Source of the DNA: Scatophagus argus
Lineage: Eukaryota > Chordata > Actinopteri > Scatophagidae
Length of the DNA stretch: 64,000 nucleotides
NCBI RefSeq assembly: GCF_020382885.2
Contig: NC_058499.1
Span: forward strand, 15,609,872-15,673,871
Reading direction: 5' to 3'
This document shows positions 333 to 20,728 of this stretch, one piece after another (the first letter of the stretch is position 1; each line of letters begins with the position of its first letter). The notes below the pieces were generated by a model. That model ran no database searches, was not told the origin of the DNA, and saw only the letters and a program-made list of their open reading frames with translations. A program made the translations under genes and the position numbers.

Positions 333-754
333 CAGCTGTACATACTGACAAAAGAGGAGTTGTACCTTTGTTGTAGAGCTTGTTTAGAAAAGCTCCTGTT
401 CATGTAATATGTGCTTAACCAACCTAAATGGAGATACACACAAAGTTATTTAGAAGATATCTAAATTGTAAAGGCATTTAGTAAACCCCACTCACAGCCT
501 AACTGGAACAGTACGTGTGCAATACTTTAGTGTTGAGCAGCTTTCCAGTTTTCCCCAGCTGATCCATGTAGGCTCTGGTAACTTTGAAAGAATGAGCAGC
601 TGACCAATCAGGCATCACGGTTATTTTAGTCACTGCATGCTTTTGGAGATACAGCAGGGGGTGATTGGCAGAGCTCTGTATGTCTGCCACAGACTTTTGG
701 GGCTCACCACAGCTGATGCATCTAAAATATAAACTGAATTTACATTTCATTCCT
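333..754 (+). promoter_or_regulatory. Candidate muscle-type promoter of the titin-like gene (TATAAA, four CAGCTG E-boxes, CATTCCT)
   Basis: TATAAA lies at 728-733, 52 bases before the start codon. Four copies of the MyoD/myogenin-type E-box CAGCTG sit upstream at 333-338, 556-561, 597-602 and 710-715. CATTCCT, the TEAD/MCAT core, is at 748-754, close to the expected transcription start. The motifs are seen directly; their use as a skeletal or cardiac muscle promoter is inferred. The rest of 1-727 shows no gene. Confidence 0.4.
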
Positions 755-785
755 CCAGCGTAAATAAGGACAAGTAAGAGAAAAG

Positions 786-3700
786 ATGGAAGCCAGCAAC
801 AATGAAGTAAGTGCAGTTGTGGTTGGAATTGTAATACCTAGCAATAATATCTTAAAAGTTATTGAAACATAGTACAGAATGAGTTGAGGGCATCTAAGAA
901 TTACTTTTTGATTAATGATCTTTCCATGTTGTGCTTCTTAAAAGTAAAATATTTTAAACCTTACGAGAAGAGTGAGATAATAATCAAGTTTCCTCTGTAG
1001 AACAGATGGCAGCCTGGTCTGCCATGCCTCTAGTTATTTTGAACACCATCAGGAGTTTCAGTTACCAACACAGAAAACTCACTAAGATAGAGTACATGTT
1101 AGCTTTTTGTTAAACGCTGCAGTTATTTTTGTCAAAATCTTTTTATGATTGAAAATGTAGAGCACTTTTTGATGTGGACATAGTATTGCCCTGATGTTTT
1201 TAATTTCTCTTCTCTCTTTTGTAGGCAGGAAGAAAAGCAGAAGATAAACCTCACACACTAAATATAAATATGACACCAGATACAGATGCACAGCTCACAG
1301 CAAAGGATTCCCAGTTACCCGGCATTGTCCAAGGTATGTCATGCATCATATCCGTTTGGTCTGGATTGTGAACAGGCTATTAATACTTTCATTAAAATTA
1401 AACGGTAAACTATGGAGACTTTTATTAATAATAATAAAAATGTGCAGACTCATCTCAATAATCACTTATGATTAAATTATGGCAGTGTCTATGTCTATTA
1501 GACCCTTCCTTCTGTCTGTATTTTTTTATTTTTATTTTTTACATTTTGCTGTATCTGGTACATTTCTTGGCGTTAAATGGAGAAAGATAGTTTCACCTAC
1601 TGCAACTTTGAATGGTATGTTCAAAGTATGGTATGTGCAATGACAAATCCAGCACTGTATACCTTAAAACTGAATGTTTAAAAATTATAAAATTAAAAAA
1701 TAAACTTGTGAACTTGTTGGAGCTTTCAACTGCTCCTGGCAGCATTATTAATATGTGATACAGTTCTGACAGCTAGTATATAGATCTTTTAGTTTGAATT
1801 AATTTCTTGCATTTATCGTTACCAAAGGTCTGGAATAAAATTCATGATCACATCTTTTTTGATGTTTTTTTTCCCCTCACAGCAGGTCAGGCTGCCACTT
1901 CTTTGGAGAACAGAGTACATAGCACAAAGATTCATCCTGGTCCTGTCACAGATATGGAAAATACTGTTAAACCAAAACTTCAGATAACTTTTAACACATT
2001 TACTGTCAAGAATGGTGAAGATCTGAGAATAGAGATTCCAGTCATTGGGCAGCCAGCACCAAAAATTGAATGGCAAAGAGATGGTCAGGCAGTCAAAGAA
2101 ACATCAAGGCTAGAAGTTTCAAATACATCATCATTAACAGTTCTTCATATCAGACATGGTGCTAGGGAGCACTCTGGTCAATACTCTGTCAGTGCAAGAA
2201 ACAGTGTTGGAAAATATACAGGAGAAATCACTGTGGTTGTTCTTGAAAAGCCAGACCCACCCACAGGCCCTGTGAGGATTGATGAGGTCAGTTCTGATTA
2301 TGTTACCATCTCCTGGGAGCCACCAGAATACACAGGAGGCTGTCAGCTAGACAACTACATAGTGGAGAAACGGGAAATTACAAGCACAGAATGGCAGACT
2401 GTGTCAGCAACAACAGTAAGAACTACAATCAAAGTCACCAAACTGAAGACAGGAAGTGAATACCAATTCAGAGTGTTTGCAGAAAATAGGTATGGAAAGA
2501 GTACTGCAATCACCTCTCCTATTGTAACTGCACAATATCCTTTCAGTGTGCCCACTGCTCCTGGTACTCCCTTTACTTCCACAGTGACAAAGTACAGCAT
2601 GGTGGTTGAATGGGAGCCCCCAGCCAGAGATGGAGGCAGCCCAATCATCGGCTATCACCTTGAACGCAAAGAAAAGAACAGTATTTTATGGACCAAGCTG
2701 AACAAACTTGTTATAACTGATGCTCGTTTCAAAACAAGTGGACTTGAGCAAGGCATTGAATATGAATTCAGAGTTTTTGCTGAAAATATTGCTGGACTCA
2801 GCCCACCAAGCAAGACATCTGAATGCTATGTGGCAAGAGATCCATGTGATCCACCTGGTAAACCTGAAGCTGTTGTCATTACTAGAGAGAACATCACACT
2901 TCAATGGGCAAAACCCAGGTATGATGGTGGAAGCACCATTACAGGCTATGTTGTTGAAAAGAAGGAGCTCCCAGATGGCAGATGGATGAAGACAAACTTC
3001 ACCAATGTTATTGACAATCAGTTCACAGTCACGGGTCTGACAGGAGGCCAAAGTTATGAGTTTAGAGTAACTGCTAAGAATGGTGCTGGTGTTTGGAGCA
3101 TGCCTTCAGAAAGTGTAACCATCGTCGCTCAGGATGTTGTTGAAGGACCCACAGCATCAATTGATGCCAAGTTCAAGAGCACTACTGTAGTTCAGGCTGG
3201 TGAGACATTTATTATTGATGCTGATTACTTTGGGAAGCCTCTCCCCACAGTAACATGGCTGAAGGATGGAAAAGAAATTGACAAAGTTACACCGAGAATG
3301 GAAGTCAAAAACACCCTCACTCATACAACTCTGACTGTAAGGGACTGTACACGAGTGGATGGGGGACACTTTGTCTTAAGCCTCAGTAACATTGGTGGAT
3401 CTACATCTATCCCAGTAAATGTCAAGGTCCTGGATAGACCTGGTCCTCCAGATGGACCCCTGAGGGTGAAAGTTGTCAGCGCAGAGAAGTGCAATCTACA
3501 CTGGAACCCCCCTGTAAATGATGGCGGTGCCAGTGTTTCCCACTACATCATTGAAAAAAGGGAGACCAGCCGTGTTACTTGGACAGGGGTTGAGCCTCAT
3601 GTTGAAGCTGTCAGTTACAAAGCAACAAAACTGGTTCCCGGGAAAGAATATATATTCAGAATTGCTGCTGTAAACAAATTTGGTGTTGGTGAATTTCTGG

Positions 3701-6700
3701 AATCAGACCCCTTCATTGCACAAAACCCTTTTAAAACACCTAGTGCACCTTCTACCCCTACAGCCAGCACTGTGACTGGTGATTCTGTAGTGCTAACATG
3801 GGAAAGGCCTGAGACTGATGGAGGCTCAGAGATTGACGGCTACATCCTGGAGAAACGTGACAAAGAAGGTGTCAGGTGGACTAAATGCAACAAGAGAAGA
3901 CTAAATGACTTACGTTTCCGATGCACAGGGCTCGCTGAGGGACATTACTATCAGTTTAGAGTAATGGCAGAGAATGCTGCGGGTGTGGGTGCACCCAGTG
4001 ACCCAAGTGAGTACATAAAAGTATGTGAAGCTACTTACCCACCTGGTCCTCCTACCAACCCCAAAGTGACAGACTATTCTAGCAGTACTGTGTCTCTTAC
4101 CTGGTCAAAGCCCATCTATGATGGTGGAGCAGCCATCAGTGCATTTTTGGTTGAGATGAAAGAAGCAGCAGAGGACAAGTGGATCAAATGCTCACCAAAC
4201 ACAGGTGTAGAGGACACAAACTACACTGTGAAGAGACTGAGAGAAAATGCAGAGTACAACTTTCGTATACGTGCAATGAACAGTGCTGGAGTTGGAGAGC
4301 CTGTGGATGTACCTGAATCTGTGGTAGCTTCTGAAAAACTGGAGGCACCTGAGATTGAGTTGGACACAGCCTTGAGGAAGATTGTGAGCGTTCGAGCCTG
4401 TTCGACATTGCGTCTCTGTGTCACCATCAGAGGAAGGCCGGAGCCTGAGGTTAAATGGTCAAAGGAAGGTGGCTCTCTGAGTGAACGTGCTCAAATTGAG
4501 GTAACAAGTTCCTATACAGTGTTACTCATTGAGAATGTCAACAGAAATGACACGGGAAAATATGTGTTGACTGCTGAGAACTGCAGTGGTTCTAAATCAG
4601 CATTCATCAATGTTAGGGTACTGGACTCTCCAAGCGCTCCAACCAACTTGGAGGTAAAAGATGTAAAGAGAGACTCTGTGTCCATCTCCTGGGAGGCACC
4701 TCTCATTGATGGAGGAGCAAAGATATTGCACTACATTGTAGAAAAGCGAGAGGAGGCTAGGAAGGCATTCACAAGTGTTTGTAGCAACTGTGTGAGAAAC
4801 TCATACAAGACTGACAATCTCCAGGAAGGATGCTTCTATTATTTCCGTGTCCTTGCTGTGAATGAATTTGGCACTGGACTGCCAGCAGAGACTCCTGAGG
4901 CTATTAAAGTCTCTGAGGCTCCTCTGCCTCCTGGCAAAATCACATTCAGTGATGTTACTTGCAGTAGTGGAAGACTCTCTTGGGAGAAGCCTGACCATGA
5001 TGGAGGAAGCAAAATCACGTGCTATATTGTGGAAATGCAGACTAAGGGAGATGACACATGGTCAATATGTTCACAGAGTAAAGCACTGGAAGTAACTATT
5101 AATGGCCTGGCTAAACGAAAGGAGTATTTCTTTAGAGTCAGCGCTGTGAATGAAAAGGGCAAAAGTGAACCCAAGTACCTTTTGGCACCTGTTACAGTAA
5201 ATGATACTTGTGCTGAGCCCATTATCAATTTGCTGTCCAACACATTCAGTGTGAAAGCAGGAAATGATTTAAAGATTGATGTTCCATTTAAGGGTATGCC
5301 ACTGCCAACGGCAGCTTGGAAGAAAGATGGCAACTTGCTGAAAGAGACAAGCAGGGTAAATGTGCACACATCTGACACATCATCTCAGATCATTATCAAA
5401 GACGCAACTAGAATAGACGTTGGTGTGTATGAGGTGACCCTGTCCAACTCAGTGGGAACCACATCCGCTGAAATCTCTGTTAATGTCTTTGAAAGACCTG
5501 GACCACCAAGTGATCTCAGTGTGGATGAAGTGAGTGCCGACTTCATGTCTTTGTCATGGCAGCCACCACATTATACTGGTGGATGTCAAATCAGCAATTA
5601 TGTTGTTGAGAAAAGAGATACAGGCAGCACAATATGGCAGACCGTGTCGGCTACAGTTGCCAGAACATCAATCAAAATTTCCCGTCTAACACAGTGCACT
5701 GAATATCAGTTTCGTGTTGCTGCAGAGAATCGCTATGGCAAAAGCCACTTTGTCGAGTCTGAACCTGTTGTTGCCCAGTATCCCTTTAATCCTCCTGGTC
5801 CACCAACGTATCTCAGAGTTGTGAATGTCTCAAAGTCTGCCATGGTGATTGCATGGAGCAGGCCCGACAGTGATGGTGGCAGCCCTATTACTGGTTATCA
5901 TGTTGAATGCAAAGATCAAAGCAGTATTTTGTGGACAAAATTAAACAAAAGCCCAGTGACTGAGAACCAGTTCAAAATAACAAGTGTTGAAGAAGGTCTC
6001 ATATATGAGTTCAGGGTCTGTGCTGAGAATATGGCTGGTGTTGGACCATGCAGTAAGGCATCTGAGCCTGTGGCAGCAAGAGACCAGTGCGATCCCCCAC
6101 GCAACCTAACCATCACCAATATAACTAACAGCTCAGTTTCCCTCTCATGGGACAAACCAGAGTATGACGGTGGAGCTAAAGTAACCGGGTACATTGTTGA
6201 ACGTAAAGAAATGCCGGACAGCTGCTGGCTTAAGTGCAACTTCACCAACCTACAGGACACTTTCTTGGAAGTGACCGGCCTCACGGAGGGTGAACAGTAT
6301 GATTTTCGTGTGATAGCAAAAAATGCAGCTGAGCTTTTCAGTGCACCCTCTGAAAACACAGGACCTGTTACAGTACAGCACGACGTAGAGCCACCCAGAA
6401 TTGTCTTGGAGGACAAATTTAGACAGGTGGTGGTTGTCAAAGCAGGAGACTTCTTAAAAATAGATGCTGACATCTCCGGCCGCCCCAACCCCACAGTGTT
6501 TTGGTTGAAGAATGGTAGACATATTGGCACCAAGGGAAGGGTTGAGGTTGCTACAACAAAGACACATACTTCTCTTCTCATCAGAGAAAGTGTTAGGAAA
6601 GACTCTGGACAGTATACACTGACCCTACAGAATACAGGTGGTACCACATCTAAGGTTGTCACATGCAAGGTCCTGGACAGGCCAGGCCCACCTGCTGGAC

Positions 6701-8345
6701 CCCTGGAAGTGTCTGGACTCTCAGCAGAGAAATGCACCCTGACATGGGGACCCCCTCATGAGAATGGTGGTGCTGAGATTATGCACTACATTGTTGAGAA
6801 GTGCGAAACCAGCCGTGTAGCTTGGATCCTTGTGTATGGAGACATGATGACAACTACTTGCAAAATAACAAAGCTGCTCAAAGGAAATGAATACCTGTTT
6901 AGGATAAGGGCAGTGAACAAGTATGGGGAGGGTGAGCCTTTGGAAAGTGAGCCTATTAAGGCCATGGATCCCTTTACTGTCCCCTCTCCACCAATGGATG
7001 TCGAGGTCACAAGTGCAACTAGTGACGCCATGACTATTTGCTGGAAGAGACCTGCCACTGATGGTGGCAGCCGCATCAGTGGTTACATTATAGAGAAGAG
7101 GGAGAAGCAGGGTGTTCGCTGGGTTCGTGTCAATAAGAAACCAGTCTATGACCTTCGAGTTAAAGCGTCCTGCCTGCGCGAGGGATGTGAATATGAATTC
7201 AGGGTTTTTGCTGAAAATGCTGCTGGGCTAAGTGAACCTAGTCTCCCATGCCCACTCACTCTAGCAGAGGATCCAAAATTTCTACCTTCCCCTCCAGCAA
7301 AACCTGCCATAGTCGATTCATCAAGGTCCTCCATCACTCTGTCATGGAACAAGCCACTGTTTGATGGTGGAGCATCAGTCACTGGATACAAAGTTGAATT
7401 CAGAAAATTAACAGACGAAGAGTGGACTGTTGCTGTCCATAACACAGACAAAACAGAGTTTACAGTTACTGGACTCACATCAGGAATGGAATATGTATTT
7501 ATTGTCAGATCCATAAATAAGATTGGTATCAGTGAGTCCAGTCCTGAAACAGATCCACAAGTAGCCATAGAGAGGGAGGAGGAACCCAAGTTTGACATTA
7601 CCACAGAGATGAGGAAGACCCTGCTTGTTAAAGATGGCAGCTCCTTCACTTTGACTGTGCCTTTCACAGGCAAACCTGTTCCCTGTGTGACATGGGACAA
7701 AGCAGATGTAGATCTGAGAGTCAGAGGACTGATCAACACCAGCAACTCTGTCACCTCTTTAACAGTGGAACAGGCAACACGTGATGATTCTGGCAAATAC
7801 ACAGTCAAACTGCAAAACATTGCTGGATCTGCCTCTTTGATGCTGAATGTGAGGGTTTTGGATTCACCTGGTCCACCAACACATATAGCAGTTAAAGATG
7901 TGACCAAAAACTCTGCCACCATTTCCTGGGACATCCCTGAGAATGAGGGAGGAGCCCCAGTAAAAAAGTATCTTGTAGATATACGAGACATTAGCAGAAA
8001 AGGGTGGACAAGGCTCACGGACAAATGCCGCCGACTGTCCTACAAGGTGTCTGACCTGCAAGAGGGAGGAATCTACTTCTTCAGAGTGACTGCTGAAAAT
8101 GAGTACGGGATCGGTGTTCCAGCTGAGACCAAGGAGGGCACAAAAATGATAGGTACAAAAGAATAAACACTTAAGAGTTGTTAATTAATAATTAGATATA
8201 ATTAGCAGTTAAGTTCTTTTGCTTTCTGCACATTATTCTACTTCTTGCATTACGGGGAACTCTGTTTTTCTTGTGACTTAGATTAATTATTTTTTTTCTG
8301 TTAATTTCAGATACAGCAGACTGGGAGACAAATTCAGGAGCTTAG
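786..8345 (+). CDS. Titin-like protein: free-standing A-band C-zone super-repeat (6 Ig + 15 Fn3 domains)
   Basis: Coding exons: 786-806, 1225-1333, 1883-8152, 8311-8345; frame is kept throughout, giving 2144 residues. The ATG at 786 has A at -3 and an in-frame stop at 765-767. Residues 1-72 are a unique, low-complexity head. Ig domains then begin near residues 73, 465, 864, 1154, 1546 and 1944, separated by Fn3 blocks of 3, 3, 2, 3, 3 and 1. Each Ig keeps its core Trp, and each Fn3 keeps the W-x-x-P...GG signature typical of titin. This order and many local motifs (YTGGCQ, RDPCDPP, RPGPP linkers) match the 11-domain super-repeat of the titin C-zone, which binds myosin and MyBP-C in the thick filament. 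There is no kinase, PEVK, Z-disc or M-line part. The tail is 10 new residues ending at TAG 8343-8345. Known: titin encodes this zone in one giant exon. Inferred: a partial titin duplication now running as its own gene. Expression is unproven. Confidence 0.85.
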
Positions 8346-8645: not shown

Positions 8646-8664
8646 ATGAAGATGATTAGAACAT

Positions 8665-8872
8665 ACACTAATCGGCTGCAAAATTAAAACCACCTGCTTG
8701 ATGTTTTGTAAGCCCCCCTTGTGCTGTCAAAACAACTCTGACCTGTCTGGGGGTAGTCATTGGAATATTGGATCTTTTGGGTCCTTGAGACATTCCTGAG
8801 CTATTTTTGAAACGTGAGGGGGTACACTGTCCAACAGACAGGAGGTTGCTGCTGATGGGAAGAGCTTTATGG
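8665..8872. repeat. Decayed teleost interspersed repeat
   Basis: The stretch opens with a form of the 'cgatcagcca...attaaaaccacctgc' end that recurs widely in fish genomes. It continues with matching blocks ('ccccttgtgc...caaaaca', 'attcctgagc...tttttg') separated by internal deletions. I recognise it from memory of the family and do not assign a class. It is old, has no coding capacity, and separates the titin-like gene from cib1. Confidence 0.65.
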
Positions 8873-14307: not shown

Positions 14308-17300
14308 TCAGGGTTCAGTCCCTGCGGCGTTTTCCTTCCCTTCCCTGGTCTTGATGATGCCATACTCCACTGCCTTGTCCAGACAGTTCTGAGCTATCCT
14401 AGAGACAGCTTCCTGTATGCTCTCTCCTCCCTTCGCCAAGACAGACAGAATCTCCAGAGCTTCACTCTCCATCATCATCTCAGCCAGACTCTTCTCTGCC
14501 TGCATCATGTTCTGAACTATGACCACTCCCCGATGTCGTAGGTCGGACATTTCACTGAGCAACAGTGCCTGCACTATCTCCAACCAGTGTGTCGTCTGAG
14601 AGAAGAGAGGACGACAGGGAGTCATGTGAGCTGAAATAGAAAAATGAACCACTGTAGTACGTATGTGACAGTGCTGAGCTTATGGATGTGTGCTTACTGT
14701 CCCAGGGATGCGGGCGCAGATCTCAGGTTGCTCAGCGGTCAGCATAGCCAAAGTTCCTGCCGCAGCTTTCCGCAGCCTCTCGTCCTCCTCTCCACTGTAG
14801 AGCACAAGCAGCTTCAGCCGATCGTTTCCAGTGGCCACAAACAGCTTCTGCACCTGAGGACACACCAAACACCCACCGCTTTTACTTCAACCTTTCATCA
14901 TATTTGTGCTATACAACCATATATGTGCACATGTCTTACCTCTGTGCTTAAAACCAAATTACACATGCATTCTGTGGCTGAAGCTCGCACCAGGTCGTGC
15001 TCCTCAAACATGTAGCCCTCAATTTTCGGGACTGCCTTCTCCTTTATGATCTTTTGCCTGTGTAACAACACCAGTAGAAGCTGATACTCTGATAGTCAGA
15101 ATAAAAGATGCATAATGAAAACACACTGAAATCCTTTCAACTTGGCCTCTAGTTTGTTTAAGATTTGAAATTTGACTTGGGTTGTTAAAAAACTATGGTC
15201 AGAATATTTTCACAATTTTTTTGAAAAAAAATTAGCTAAACCATAAAAATCTGTAACTACATTTACTAAATGAAGAATAAACTCTTGTCTGTTTTCTGCA
15301 ATTAAGTTCAAGTACTAGTGTATTATATCCACTGTGTTTTGTACACGGTATTCTTAGGAAAGACTTCCCCCTAGTGGCCAACCTGAGTCTCTCACTGATG
15401 CCAGCTAAGTTGGTGAGAGCCATGAGTGCCTCGAAGTTCTGCAGCAGAGTACATTCTAGACTCAGAAGACTGACAAGGGGGCGCACCACCTCATAGATCT
15501 GACAAAAAAGTGGCACAAGGTTAAATAGGAAGGTCTTTAGTTTTTTTTTTTTTTAAACTGAAGAGGATTTTTACAGGATATAATTCTCACCCTTTCTCCT
15601 GGAAAAGCAATCTCTGGGTTAGATGTGATGGCTATTTTTGCCAGCGCTTGTGCTGCTTTGATTTTACCCACATCTGTGTTGTCAGATGCCAGTGGGATCA
15701 AAGCCTGTGATGGAGAACAGTGAACATAAATCATGTAAACCTCCTAAAGCAAGGTGTTTAAATTTTTGATATTTATCAGGTTGTTCTACCTTTCCTCCAC
15801 CCTGTGCCACCACTGTGCCTCGGTCTTCCTGTTGTTCCACCAAAGCCAAAAAGACCCTGCCGTGAGAAATGGCATTAACACCAAATCCAAGTATAGAAGA
15901 GCGTGTGGAAAAGACTTAACTGCCATTTTCCTACCTGGCAATACACTCCCTACAAGCCTCTGTGAGGGCAGGACTCTCCTGTTTGACCATACACACCAGT
16001 GCAGACACCACACCAGCCTCCAGCAGCTTCTTCAGTCTTTTCTCCACATAGGAAGGTGCATCCTGACACATGAAAAGACAGAAAGGTTCAGGAAAACACT
16101 AAATAAGCAAACAAATAAACAAAAGCTGATCAGAATAGGCACTGAGCAATATTGTGTGATGCTGATGAAAAAAGCAGCTTCTGGATGTTACCTTCGGGTG
16201 CTCCTCGGGCACGTGTTGCTTGGCATACTTGGCCAGCTCGACCATCTGAGGATCTGGCTTCTCCACATCGTAGCTGTTGGTGCAATTCACTAATGTGGAG
16301 CCCACGGCAAAGAGCACTGTCTTATCCTCAGACTGCAGAAAGACACAAAAAAAAATAAATAAGGTTGTTAAAGCTACCCCAGGTAACACTGTAACAGTGT
16401 CACATTCTCATGTTGGTGGCTGAAAAATACTACACAAAAATATCACAGCAACCACTCATTATGAAAACCTACAATGACAATCATCAATCAACCTTTGCTA
16501 GTGCGCACATGGCCAGGAGAGCATTCTTGTCTTCCACTAAGTCCTCCTTCACATCAGCATCAAAGGTCAGGTAGGCGAGTCCTTCCACAGACCACCGGCG
16601 GGATGTTGGAGGCAGAGACTCATTACACAGCCACCTAAAAAAGGAAGAGTTACAGCTTGCTTCTTATTTCAAATTCAACAAACCACTCTTTATCCGTTGT
16701 TTTTAGATCAGATTATGCAACAACATGGATCCGGCATGACGTTTCTCTTAATCTATACCCAGGTCCATGATTCCACCCTGGCAAACATACTTCCTGCACT
16801 GTTTGGCCAGCTTCAGCGTGGATCCCTCTGCAAACTGCTTCATGCTGAAATCTGTCCCTCCTGCTGATCCAAGTTTGCACAAACCCTGTGTAATAACCAT
16901 CAGAAACCGTAGTTAATTTACCTTGATTTAGAAGTGTTCTTTTCTCTAGCTGTCTGAAAAAAAATGTACTTTCTTTTGCTGCAACACTTACCACCAAGGC
17001 TCTCACACGTATTCTGTCATTCTCGCTCCTCTTGTAGAGGTCCTTCAGAAGTGTCACGCCATTGGCTGTGATGAAGGAGGCCCTCTTGGCTTTGCCTGCA
17101 GCATGGATTAGAGCCTCCACGGCTACCTGCTGATGAGTTACATCTTCGGAGGCACACAGTGAGATCACTGCATCAATCATCCCTGACATCTCCAGAGTTC
17201 TGTTACCAACGTCACTGGGTCCTTGAAGGAGCACCGATACCGTCTGGATTGCTCGCAGCTTGGCATCTAAGCCAGATCGACTAAAGTGTGTCCTACACAG

Positions 17301-20300
17301 GAAAACATCCATTTAAAAAGTTTGCAAAAAATGCATGTTTTTGGACTTGTGGCCTGTAATAAGGAGTAGTTAGTAGTAGTTTAAAATTGTCAACTCACTG
17401 TACATATTCTTCACACAGTTTATTAAAGTTCTCCCTTTCTTTGTCACTTTTCAGGTCATCGTAGAGTTTGCTAAGCAAGACAGAGCAGCTCATGTGGGAA
17501 TTGTCTGTTAGGGGTGGTCCCTCTGAGAGTTCAGGGACTGTCCCGGCTACCTCCAGGATTTTCTTTAGTCCTGCAAGAAGACAAGGGATTAAGTAATCTG
17601 GCTGCAGTCACGCTAGATAAAACGGACGACAGAATGTCTGAAATTGGCTTGGAATAGCTGAAGCCACATGCAAATTTGACTTTAGATGTTTTAGACTGAA
17701 CACTTCACTCTCCCTCCCACAGTAATACAACTATACTGGAGAACTGAAAGAGGTATGTCTGTTTTATATCCATCCTAGCAGAGGAATGTGAAATATTGAA
17801 CATTATGTGCAGGTGCGTTTCATACCCTGGTCTATCAACCACAATGTGAGGGAGTTATCTGGATTTTTCAAAGACTTTCGGGGAACTTGTTTGACCAGGA
17901 GGTTGATGGCGCTGTCTCTGCCTGGTCCCAACACATTAGATGCTGGTATCATTTCCAAGAGGTGGCTTATCATTGAACGTAGCTCCTTGGAAGGTTCTGT
18001 GTCAAATTCATACAGTCAGTTACTGTTAAAAGCACAGGACAGAAAGTTTACACACACAGAAACACACACGCACGCGTTTGTTATTGGTCAGCTTTCATGC
18101 GTAGCCAAGTCCAATATAAACATGATCAGAGTCCAAACTCACCAGGAAGTATGGCTTCATCTTTCCCTCTGATCTCTCTTTTCATGCCCTCCGTCAGAGC
18201 CTCAAACATCACCTGCAGCAGGTGGCAGGCAGCCAAAGACACAGTGGAGGCTCCTGATCCCATTACTGCACACAGCTGCTCCATTCCCAGCTCGTTCACT
18301 ATAGCCATAGTCTGCAAATAAAACAGTGGATGTCAGCGATAAAAAGCAGCAAAGCAACTAATAGGCCTCACTCGCACGCTAAATTCAGTCTCCCGACAGA
18401 CATGAATGTGGATATAGAGGGTCACCACTAGATACACTTCTTGTTCTATTGATGTTTTCAATAAAAAGAAAATACAAGCTTGCAAGCCTGTTAAAATGGA
18501 CTTTAAAGATGAAGTGAAGAGTAAGTTGTAAGGGAATTGTCACACTTACTCTGGACTGATGGCCCGTGCACAAACCAACCAGGGTCCTCAGGGCAGAAAG
18601 AACAACATCCTCCTGCTTTGACTGAAGAAGTTTCTGGATCAGCTTCACTCCATCGTTCCGGAAGATCTGCTCAGCGCCTGCATCTTCACGAGATAATACC
18701 ACCAGATTCTGAGCAGCCTGGAATTGAACAAAAAACAACATTATTTTCCTGCAATAAAACTTTACAGATAAAATCAATAAAAATCATAATAGTAAAAGAG
18801 TAAACCACAAATGTTTATTATGTTCCTGCCTTTTATGCCACCCCCTACCTTTTGTCGATCTGCATCTTTTGCGGATGCATCCAAGAGGAGGGAGAACATT
18901 TGCTGCACACGAGCATCTGTGGAGTTTAGTTGCATCGACTGCACAGTTAAGAGAAAAAATGTAATTAGCAAGAGTTTGCTCAGGGTGCTGTTTCAAATGA
19001 ACGACAAACCTCCGTGACCCCAATCCAAAAAAACACAAGAAAGAAGGAAAGAAAGAAAAAAGAAAGAAAGATTGGATTGGATATTGAATAAATTTGATAT
19101 GCCAGTATTTTCTGATAAAATTTGCTGATGCCAATACATGCATATTTTTCCACCAATGTGCAAAGAACATCAAGTCTCTATAGCAGTGGAGTTAACAGAT
19201 TATTATGTCTACTCTTACAGTGATGGCCCACTGGCAGATACATACATGCAATGGCTTTCAGAGTGTAGACATTCACGAAGCAAAATAATAACTACTTGGT
19301 CAGTGATTAACGTTGCATGTGCACAATTACATTTTCTGATAAACAGTATTTTATTTTACACTGATATTATCATGCACCTCTAAAAAGAACACATCACCTT
19401 CTGCTGGATTTGTGCTCCCAGCTGTCTGAGCAGATCCTGGAAGGCTTTGTTTTTGGGCTCCAGCTGGGCACACTTCTGAGCATCCAGAAAGGCCTGGTCA
19501 AGCCGACCGAGTTTCAGGAAAGCCTGAGCTCTCCGGAACCTGGCTTTCACATCACCTGGGTCATTATCGAGTGCTGAAGAGTGACAGACATGACACATTC
19601 AACTAAACTGCGCACCTACCACCACAGATCTTAATACTAAAATACTTCGAGTAACAGTTCATGCAACAGTACAGTGTACAGAAAGATTATTTATTTTTGT
19701 CATTTTGCCAATAAAATAAATTAACCCACAATAATCTGACTGGTTGTACATCATTGGCAATAGCCCATCAACACTGAGTAATCTGAAGCTGCTAAGTAAC
19801 TACTAAAAAAGTTATCAAAAAAATGTAGTGGAGTATAAAAATGTACCTTAAAATGGTAGTGGAAAAAAAAAATCTGAAATAGTGAAGTAAGGTACAAGTA
19901 CCTCAAAACTGTACTTGAATAAGTTCTTTCCTTCACTTCTTATTCTAAATGTTGACAAGAAGATTCTCATTTCTACCTGTCTCTTCGACTACTCTTAAAC
20001 CATATCGGTCAATCAGTAGTAAAGCATATAATTTTTACTTTGAAAGGAGAAATATAACAACTTAGTATGGCTGTAAATAGTTTCTTCAATTATAGGGAAG
20101 ACAGCTGGTGGGTCTACATGTGTATATTCACCCAAGCACCTACAGTATGTCTGTCACGTGTTAAGACAGCTGCTGTGAAGTTTTTCAAATGTAAGATTTT
20201 GTCACTTTGAGCACCCTAACCCATAGGTCATTCAGATCATGATGCTTTTTAGTAAACTACAGATCACAGGTCCAAACCTGCAAACATGGGCAGATCACAG

Positions 20301-20728
20301 TATAGGTCAGAGTCCAGGAAAAGGAGGCTTAATGGTGTATTAACTGCATTCAGTGACGTATGAATTGAACAATATCTTTGACTGCGATTTATCCCACCTT
20401 TGGAGGCATCAGCTTCTGCCTTGTTGTACTCCTCCAGTTTCAGGTAACAGGCAGAGCGGTTGCGGTACAAAACAGCAATCTCCGCTTCTTTGTTACTAAG
20501 CTTTAATGCTTTGGTGTAACAGCATACAGCGCCCTGCATGTCTCCTGCCTTGAAAAGATTGTTTCCCTCTTCCTTCAGGGCTGCAGGGTCCTGAGTTAAA
20601 TGAGAAAAAGCAACAAGGGCTCAGGATGGCAAGCATCGAGATTGGTTTTCTGGATGAAATCTGTTATGCTTAAAAGCTTCAGTTATGTCGCTAAATGCTG
20701 TTACCTTTTCCTTGTCACTCTCGCTCAT
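14308..20728 (-). CDS. unc45a: UNC-45 homolog A, myosin/Hsp90 co-chaperone
   Basis: Nineteen coding exons, 5' to 3': 20705-20728, 20398-20590, 19398-19573, 18849-18938, 18550-18717, 18143-18311, 17826-17996, 17399-17570, 16992-17292, 16791-16885, 16493-16634, 16192-16332, 15935-16062, 15790-15856, 15591-15704, 15383-15498, 14940-15057, 14698-14853, 14308-14595. All phases join, giving 942 residues (human 944). Residues about 9-130 form the TPR region that binds Hsp90 ([34 protein letters not shown]). The remainder is the armadillo-like central and UCS domains that bind myosin heads. UCS blocks include [36 protein letters not shown] and [13 protein letters not shown]. The sequence follows UNC45A (general cell isoform) rather than UNC45B (muscle). 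The first coding exon is only eight codons. Confidence 0.96.
15364..15377 (-). promoter_or_regulatory. CTCF-like motif at an unc45a exon/intron edge
   Basis: The minus strand reads CCACTAGGGGGAAG, matching 13 of 14 positions of CCASYAGRKGGCRS. It lies in the intron just 5 bases from the donor of exon 15383-15498. Occupancy is unknown and a chance match is possible. Confidence 0.25.
19630..19935. repeat. Decayed teleost interspersed repeat in an unc45a intron
   Basis: The motifs 'gtagtggagta', 'aaaatggtagtggaa' and 'aaggtacaagtacctcaaaa(c)tgtactt' are the hallmarks of a repeat very common in percomorph genomes. The copy has many substitutions. It was recognised by memory of the family; boundaries are approximate. 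Confidence 0.55.

Follow-up and report, generated by a model that had tools for sequence, protein, structure and literature searches.

Separate, smaller muscle proteins built of Ig and Fn3 domains are known from invertebrates, where twitchin, projectin, kettin and other titin relatives are ancient, carry kinase or actin-binding parts and are not copies of the vertebrate C-repeat. MyBP-H and MyBP-HL are short paralogues that retain thick-filament-binding Ig/Fn3 domains and derive from MyBP-C. The C-zone of titin consists of 11-domain super-repeats in the order Ig-Fn2-Ig-Fn3-Ig-Fn3 (PMC10665226), of which eleven are described in mammals (PMC10665226, PMC7427331). In cryo-electron tomography (cryo-ET), these C-repeats lie along myosin tails; repeat domains 4-8 sit on the S2 of crown 2, and domain 6 sits on a free head (PMC10665186). 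Cronos titin is a short isoform made from an alternative titin promoter (PMC12854356). Here we analyzed a 64,000-nucleotide stretch of the Scatophagus argus genome (C7:15609872-15673871; hereafter the window), which carries a predicted gene, called the mini-gene below, that encodes only 21 domains of the titin C-zone.

Compared with the C-zone of T1, one of the two titin genes of this fish, the mini-gene has the same domain order and super-repeat register, 71% amino acid identity and the donor site of the giant titin exon, but it lies at another locus, has its own predicted head and tail, and lacks the Z-disc, I-band, PEVK, kinase and M-band parts of titin. Like Cronos titin it is a shortened titin carrying A-band domains; unlike Cronos, it is a separate locus holding part of the C-zone only. 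Its domain order also differs from that of MyBP-H and MyBP-HL. Based on the evidence below, we are highly confident that the mini-gene originated in the C-zone of T1 and has long been under purifying constraint. Among the papers listed in a literature search, no title or abstract opening described such a gene; several of these papers use the term 'titin-like', and an automatic database name of that sort is possible for the mini-gene. Scans for relatives in viral and prokaryote contigs found none.

The preliminary description of this DNA had counted 21 titin-type domains, and a search with profiles made from the mini-gene and the host titins found exactly that number, in the order IFFFIFFFIFFIFFFIFFFIF (I = Ig, F = Fn3), or I-FFF-I-FFF-I-FF-I-FFF-I-FFF-I-F. 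All 21 are in register with the 11-domain order of the titin C-zone, and one super-repeat is complete. The top match in PDB was the titin chain 8q6t_I, collinear over query residues 319-1396 with 1586 bits; kinship with MyBP-C or MyBP-H was rejected on this comparison, the best MyBP-C chain reaching 240 bits. Downstream of its giant exon, T1 continues with the remainder of one C-repeat, three full repeats, the series Ig-Ig-Fn-Fn-Ig-Ig-Fn and a kinase-like sequence, recognised as such by eye; T2, the second titin gene, was traced through the same three repeats, not as far as the kinase. If this fish has eleven C-repeats, as mammals do, the fragment corresponds to positions 4-11 of C6, all of C7 and positions 1-2 of C8, or A101-A121 by arithmetic in A-band numbering with C1 taken to start at A43.

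To place the fragment within the 570.7-Mb host genome (48 contigs), the exon-3 protein was searched against it, and scores were computed for 23 of the 438 first-look candidates. This gave 51 scored matches, one on contig C7 (the mini-gene itself) and 50 on C11, which holds both titin genes (T1 at 23.38-23.43 Mb and T2 at 24.21-24.26 Mb). Each titin cluster contains one giant exon of 58 domains; the open frames span 5722 and 5798 codons, and the mini-gene aligns with the final 21 domains of either exon. Identity was 71.2% between the mini-gene and T1 (1465/2059), 55.0% between the mini-gene and T2 (1131/2058) and 60.0% between T1 and T2 (1241/2070); the alignment with T1 runs end to end with two indels of one residue each. 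Each of the 21 mini-gene domains had its collinear T1 counterpart as best match among all 116 giant-exon domains, which rules out a chimera of several titin parts. With the 8q6t titin chain as fourth sequence (951 columns; 956 of the 1079 residues of the match used), the mini-gene and T1 grouped at 100%, and both rival topologies were rejected by the approximately unbiased test (p about 3e-4 with 5000 replicates, a number the program called few). These results agree with the earlier proposal that a fragment of the titin C-zone was duplicated to another site. Continuation into a full titin gene, which would have told against that proposal, was not seen: among the scored candidates the mini-gene is the sole titin match on its contig, with no contiguous I-band, kinase or M-band exons. 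A Cronos-like titin isoform was likewise ruled out, the mini-gene being on a different contig from titin.

At the 3' end of the copied segment, the splice site at 8152/8153 is the one that closes the giant titin exon (donor AACAG/GTATTT in T1, GATAG/GTACAA in the mini-gene), and the sequence beyond it is not the next exon of titin, as compared with T1; exon 4 is not homologous to that exon. Because the native donor is kept and the next titin exon is absent, the template was DNA or unspliced RNA, and a processed retrocopy of spliced messenger RNA is ruled out. At the 5' end, the copy begins within the giant exon. Identity to T1, taken over ungapped windows of 30 bases, was 0.07-0.30 at window starts 1783-1873, 0.40-0.53 at 1888-1933 and 0.60-0.77 from 1948 on (six windows looked at). 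Since homology to T1 starts within the giant exon and ends at its donor, the exon 3 acceptor and the predicted exons 1, 2 and 4 are local additions. The earlier claim that the fragment was captured by new end exons needs amending for the 3' donor, which was inherited from titin; at that end only the predicted exon 4 is new. The final stretch of the T1 giant C-zone exon, about 6.2 kb, was thus copied to the new locus, donor included, and is still an intact coding sequence; in the proposed gene, upstream sequence would supply the start codon and two short exons, and a new terminal exon the stop. Nearby lie a Tc-type transposase helix-turn-helix piece, immediately upstream of the window and close to the insertion site (L039:8808-9248, minus strand; PF01498, E 1e-8), and a repeat element that separates the mini-gene from cib1 (window 8657-8866); it consists of two blocks, each about 90 bases long, with at least 55 other scored genome matches at 78-91% identity.

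The four-exon model given earlier was reproduced exactly (Table 1) and forms one 2144-codon frame in which the terminal stop is the only stop; exon 3 lies within a single stop-to-stop frame of 2122 codons. Each of the six splice sites carries GT or AG; the context is good at five and middling at the exon 3 donor. The exon 3 acceptor is the doublet CAGCAG, so that the exon could start at 1883 or 1886, and the frame is open with both. The start ATG of predicted exon 1 has A at -3 and G at +4. The frame is open through predicted exons 1-2. Exon 3 contains an in-frame ATG in good context at 1954, and a start there would yield the whole titin-like part without the unique 72-residue head described earlier. 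As this ATG could serve as start, the head is unproven. The head had no Pfam match and one insignificant PDB match (E 1.2). When DNA positions 1-2000 were compared with the host genome, in a search that skips simple repeats and very common words, there was no other match over exon 2; besides the self-match, two short matches at 75-76% fell within intron 2. The TATA box and AATAAA attributed to the gene are both present (about 728; 8640), as string matches, and further AATAAA/ATTAAA matches lie at 8683 and 9048.

Table 1. Predicted features of the mini-gene and its surroundings (positions in the window; a slash marks a splice junction)
Feature	Position	Strand	Remarks
Four CAGCTG E-boxes upstream of ATG	333..715 (333, 556, 597, 710)	+	Possible muscle-type promoter
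Predicted coding exon 1	786..806	+	ATG, 7 codons; frame open across splice model; donor GAA/GTAAGT
Predicted coding exon 2, bulk of unique head	1225..1333	+	Acceptor TTTTGTAG/GCAGG, donor AAG/GTATGT; frame open
Exon 3: linker, then 21 titin C-zone domains	1883..8152	+	Acceptor CCTCACAG/CAGGT, donor TAG/GTACAA
Domains 1-8	1963..4335	+	Super-repeat positions 4-11 (C6, counted back from kinase)
Domains 9-19	4357..7572	+	One full 11-domain super-repeat (C7)
Domains 20-21	7594..8151	+	Positions 1-2 of following super-repeat (C8)
Predicted terminal exon 4	8311..8345	+	11 residues (first split with exon 3) and stop; acceptor TTAATTTCAG/ATACA
First AATAAA 3' of stop codon	8640..8645	+	Sequence match only
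unc45a-like gene	16713..20620	-	UNC45-central and TPR domains

The preliminary description had proposed that selection kept the frame open and had named dN/dS as a check; both the proposal and the check, with omega well under 1, hold on the mini-gene's own branch. Over the 2056 codons shared by the three sequences (gap columns and the head excluded), omega in a three-branch codon model was 0.145 for the mini-gene, 0.067 for T1 and 0.106 for T2, and fixing the mini-gene branch at omega 1 was 14.9 log units worse (2dlnL 29.8, p = 5e-8). The four quarters of the gene gave 0.137, 0.121, 0.144 and 0.139 (p = 0.012, 0.0017, 0.0056 and 0.0023 against 1). A single omega of 0.103 fell 1.2 log units under a model with a separate mini-gene omega and 2.7 under one with three free omegas, so that differences between branches were not significant (2dlnL 2.4 with one extra parameter, 5.3 with three free omegas). 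Where T1 and T2 agree, the mini-gene had changed at 181/1485 (12.2%), 161/1596 (10.1%) and 384/879 (43.7%) of codon positions 1, 2 and 3; where the mini-gene and T2 agree, T1 had changed at 122/1426, 76/1511 and 360/855. Third-position change was thus about equal, and constraint on the mini-gene protein is clear but weaker than on T1. Neutral decay simulated from T1 at 0.1 substitutions per site produced a mean of 20 stops (least 13 in 20 runs) compared to none observed, so that the sequence is unlikely to have drifted neutrally by more than about 0.015 substitutions per site, that figure being a linear scaling of the simulation. Long-lasting purifying selection on the mini-gene's own branch is therefore well supported by the sequence comparison.

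We also compared which residues were kept, with site classes taken from super-repeats 1-3 of the T1 and T2 giant exons, which do not belong to the copied region. Membership of the fold-core class additionally needs 80% agreement over all domains of the given type among the 116 of T1 and T2, collinear ones included, which slightly favours T1 and T2; the mini-gene kept 279 of 290 fold-core sites (T1, 278; T2, 282). Position-specific sites, invariant at just one super-repeat position, were kept at 205 of 277 (T1, 219; T2, 213; mini-gene versus T1, p = 0.19), core but not invariant sites at 38 of 45 (T1, 34; T2, 36), semi-conserved sites at 164 of 275 (179 in each titin) and variable sites at 401 of 1078 (T1, 447; T2, 407). 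These counts indicate that the position-specific pattern was kept, beyond the fold alone, and in titin that pattern should mirror thick-filament contacts.

The divergence is old. Identity at 4-fold sites was 42.3% between the mini-gene and T1 (714 sites), 38.2% between the mini-gene and T2 (555) and 35.3% between T1 and T2 (601); pairwise dS was 1.78 for the mini-gene and T1 and 3.85, a saturated value, for T1 and T2. In the protein tree the mini-gene leaves the T1 line near its middle (branch length 0.123 before and 0.125 after). If T1 and T2 separated before zebrafish and medaka did, the age of the copy probably exceeds about 100 million years, a rough, uncalibrated estimate that takes its split dates from general background. 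Such an early separation is suggested by the two-copy titin clusters, ttna/ttnb, reported in both zebrafish and medaka (PMC12862963); according to a different review, medaka has one titin (PMC9575118). In both sources, as far as their available text goes, the origin of the titin pair is named or implied as whole-genome duplication. T1 and T2 lie about 0.8 Mb apart on C11, a spacing that fits tandem duplication better.

The mini-gene is flanked by a gdpgp1-like gene and cib1, a position that marks it as a dispersed duplicate. The former is an open reading frame (L039:6803-7909, minus strand) without a Pfam match that is probably GDPGP1, and the latter is presumably cib1, as recognised from exon sequence. 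An exon elsewhere in the window is assumed to be of furin type (Peptidase_S8 below cut-off) and has six similar places elsewhere in the genome, all short. In a table of copy-number variants at human 15q26.1, CIB1 and GDPGP1 are adjacent and listed with FURIN, FES, MAN2A2 and UNC45A (PMC10137620). These neighbours also occur together in human, so the titin fragment is lodged in an ancient gene neighbourhood other than titin's own. The unc45a-like gene, of a myosin chaperone family, is a close neighbour of the titin fragment; this is probably a coincidence because UNC45A belongs to the same human neighbourhood.

The mini-gene would encode a cytoplasmic rod of 21 Ig/Fn3 domains, made in muscle and about 80 nm long (21 x about 4 nm), or nearly two 43-nm periods. 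Such a rod would rest on the myosin backbone like titin's C-zone, with two copies of the super-repeat binding pattern touching myosin, and would lack the elastic I-band spring, the kinase and the M-band anchor. It might then act as a short, untethered accessory protein that stabilises or locally alters C-zone-like myosin packing, by analogy with MyBP-H, which acts beside MyBP-C on the thick filament. Positions 4-8 are present twice (domains 1-5 and 12-16), as are repeat-repeat interfaces, the second without position 3. E-boxes and MCAT elements are muscle motifs. Four CAGCTG E-boxes in the 785 bp before the ATG have a Poisson probability of 0.004 for at least four, at a rate of 68 in 84 kb, CAGCTG being one of five motif classes examined; across the whole window it occurs 57 times versus 25.5 in shuffles, a twofold excess. 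An MCAT match lies at 748, and the MEF2 consensus occurs on the plus strand once upstream (-2413) and four times at 1258-1434 (exon 2 and intron 2); no CArG was found on the plus strand from 3 kb upstream to position 2000. The E-boxes and the MCAT match hint at muscle expression at most. An antisense open frame of 111 codons (window 499-834, minus strand) overlaps the presumed promoter, has no Pfam or PDB match and is probably due to chance.

Taken as a whole, a constrained T1 copy making a thick-filament accessory rod is the explanation we favour, with modest confidence, and for its central element, a free C-zone rod docked on the thick filament in muscle, we see about an even chance. Several points weigh against it. 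The mini-gene is known here from DNA sequence alone, and exons 1, 2 and 4 are predicted from splice consensus and frame. In a relative-rate test the mini-gene had 201 unique residues compared to 95 for T1 (chi-square 38.0, p = 7e-10). High synonymous divergence makes the branch estimates soft; in one of the four quarters, the length of the T2 branch reached t = 6.3. Super-repeat positions 1 and 7, highlighted by PMC10665226, are less accelerated (34:27 versus 167:68, p = 0.03), but position 2 is similar (15:12), leaving this signal weak. The E-boxes are only suggestive, and with six titin molecules already in the C zone of each half-filament (PMC10665186), an extra rod needs a place.

The main rival to a structural role is a competitor or regulator, in which the rod would titrate myosin tails, MyBP-C or nascent filaments and so limit the loading of titin or MyBP-C. 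We regard this as unlikely though by no means negligible: the rod lacks titin's tethering ends and has two MyBP-C-facing super-repeat interfaces (domains 5-11, complete, and 16-21, without position 3), but direct contact between titin and MyBP-C was not seen by cryo-ET of relaxed cardiac muscle, according to the available text of PMC10665186. The faster protein evolution noted above would also suit a neofunctionalised rod outside the thick filament, such as a non-muscle or cytoskeletal scaffold in which the fold alone is kept, as would the unique head and the number of cysteines (37 in the mini-gene, 28 in T1 and 31 in T2). Super-repeat-specific residues are nearly as well kept as in the titins, besides the fold core, and we judge that scenario improbable.

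The same acceleration, together with Ig domains 1 and 16, each only 55% identical to T1, could instead be read as a decaying or very recently dead fragment whose purifying signal dates from an earlier functional period. Such a pseudogene is quite improbable given the absence of internal stops in 2144 codons, only two single-residue indels, intact splice dinucleotides and similarly low omega (0.12-0.14) in every quarter; more than about 0.015 neutral substitutions per site would be likely to have left a stop. The old divergence from T1 would also be compatible with the remnant of a whole third titin locus, such as an ohnologue from genome duplication, of which this exon alone survived. The mini-gene groups with T1, apart from both T2 and the mammalian chain, however, homology starts within an exon, no other titin match was scored on the contig, and the probable neighbours (gdpgp1, cib1, unc45a and furin) stand together in human 15q26.1, all of which leaves this origin highly improbable.

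Returning to the accessory rod, we put forward tentatively, and with more doubt than belief, that a teleost lineage has kept a third, separately regulated titin-derived gene for about 100 million years or more, making free C-zone rods two periods long. If true, the thick-filament 'ruler' would be modular, with part of its templating surface supplied in trans and tunable apart from the spring and kinase. C-repeats working without a Z-disc or M-band tether would bear directly on the 'molecular ruler' model of titin, and a natural gene for such a piece would offer a ready-made test of what C-repeats do alone. More generally, these results suggest that a giant single-frame exon may seed a new gene via partial duplication and persist under selection, and that part of the zone by which titin binds the thick filament may, as a short free protein, serve a separate function.

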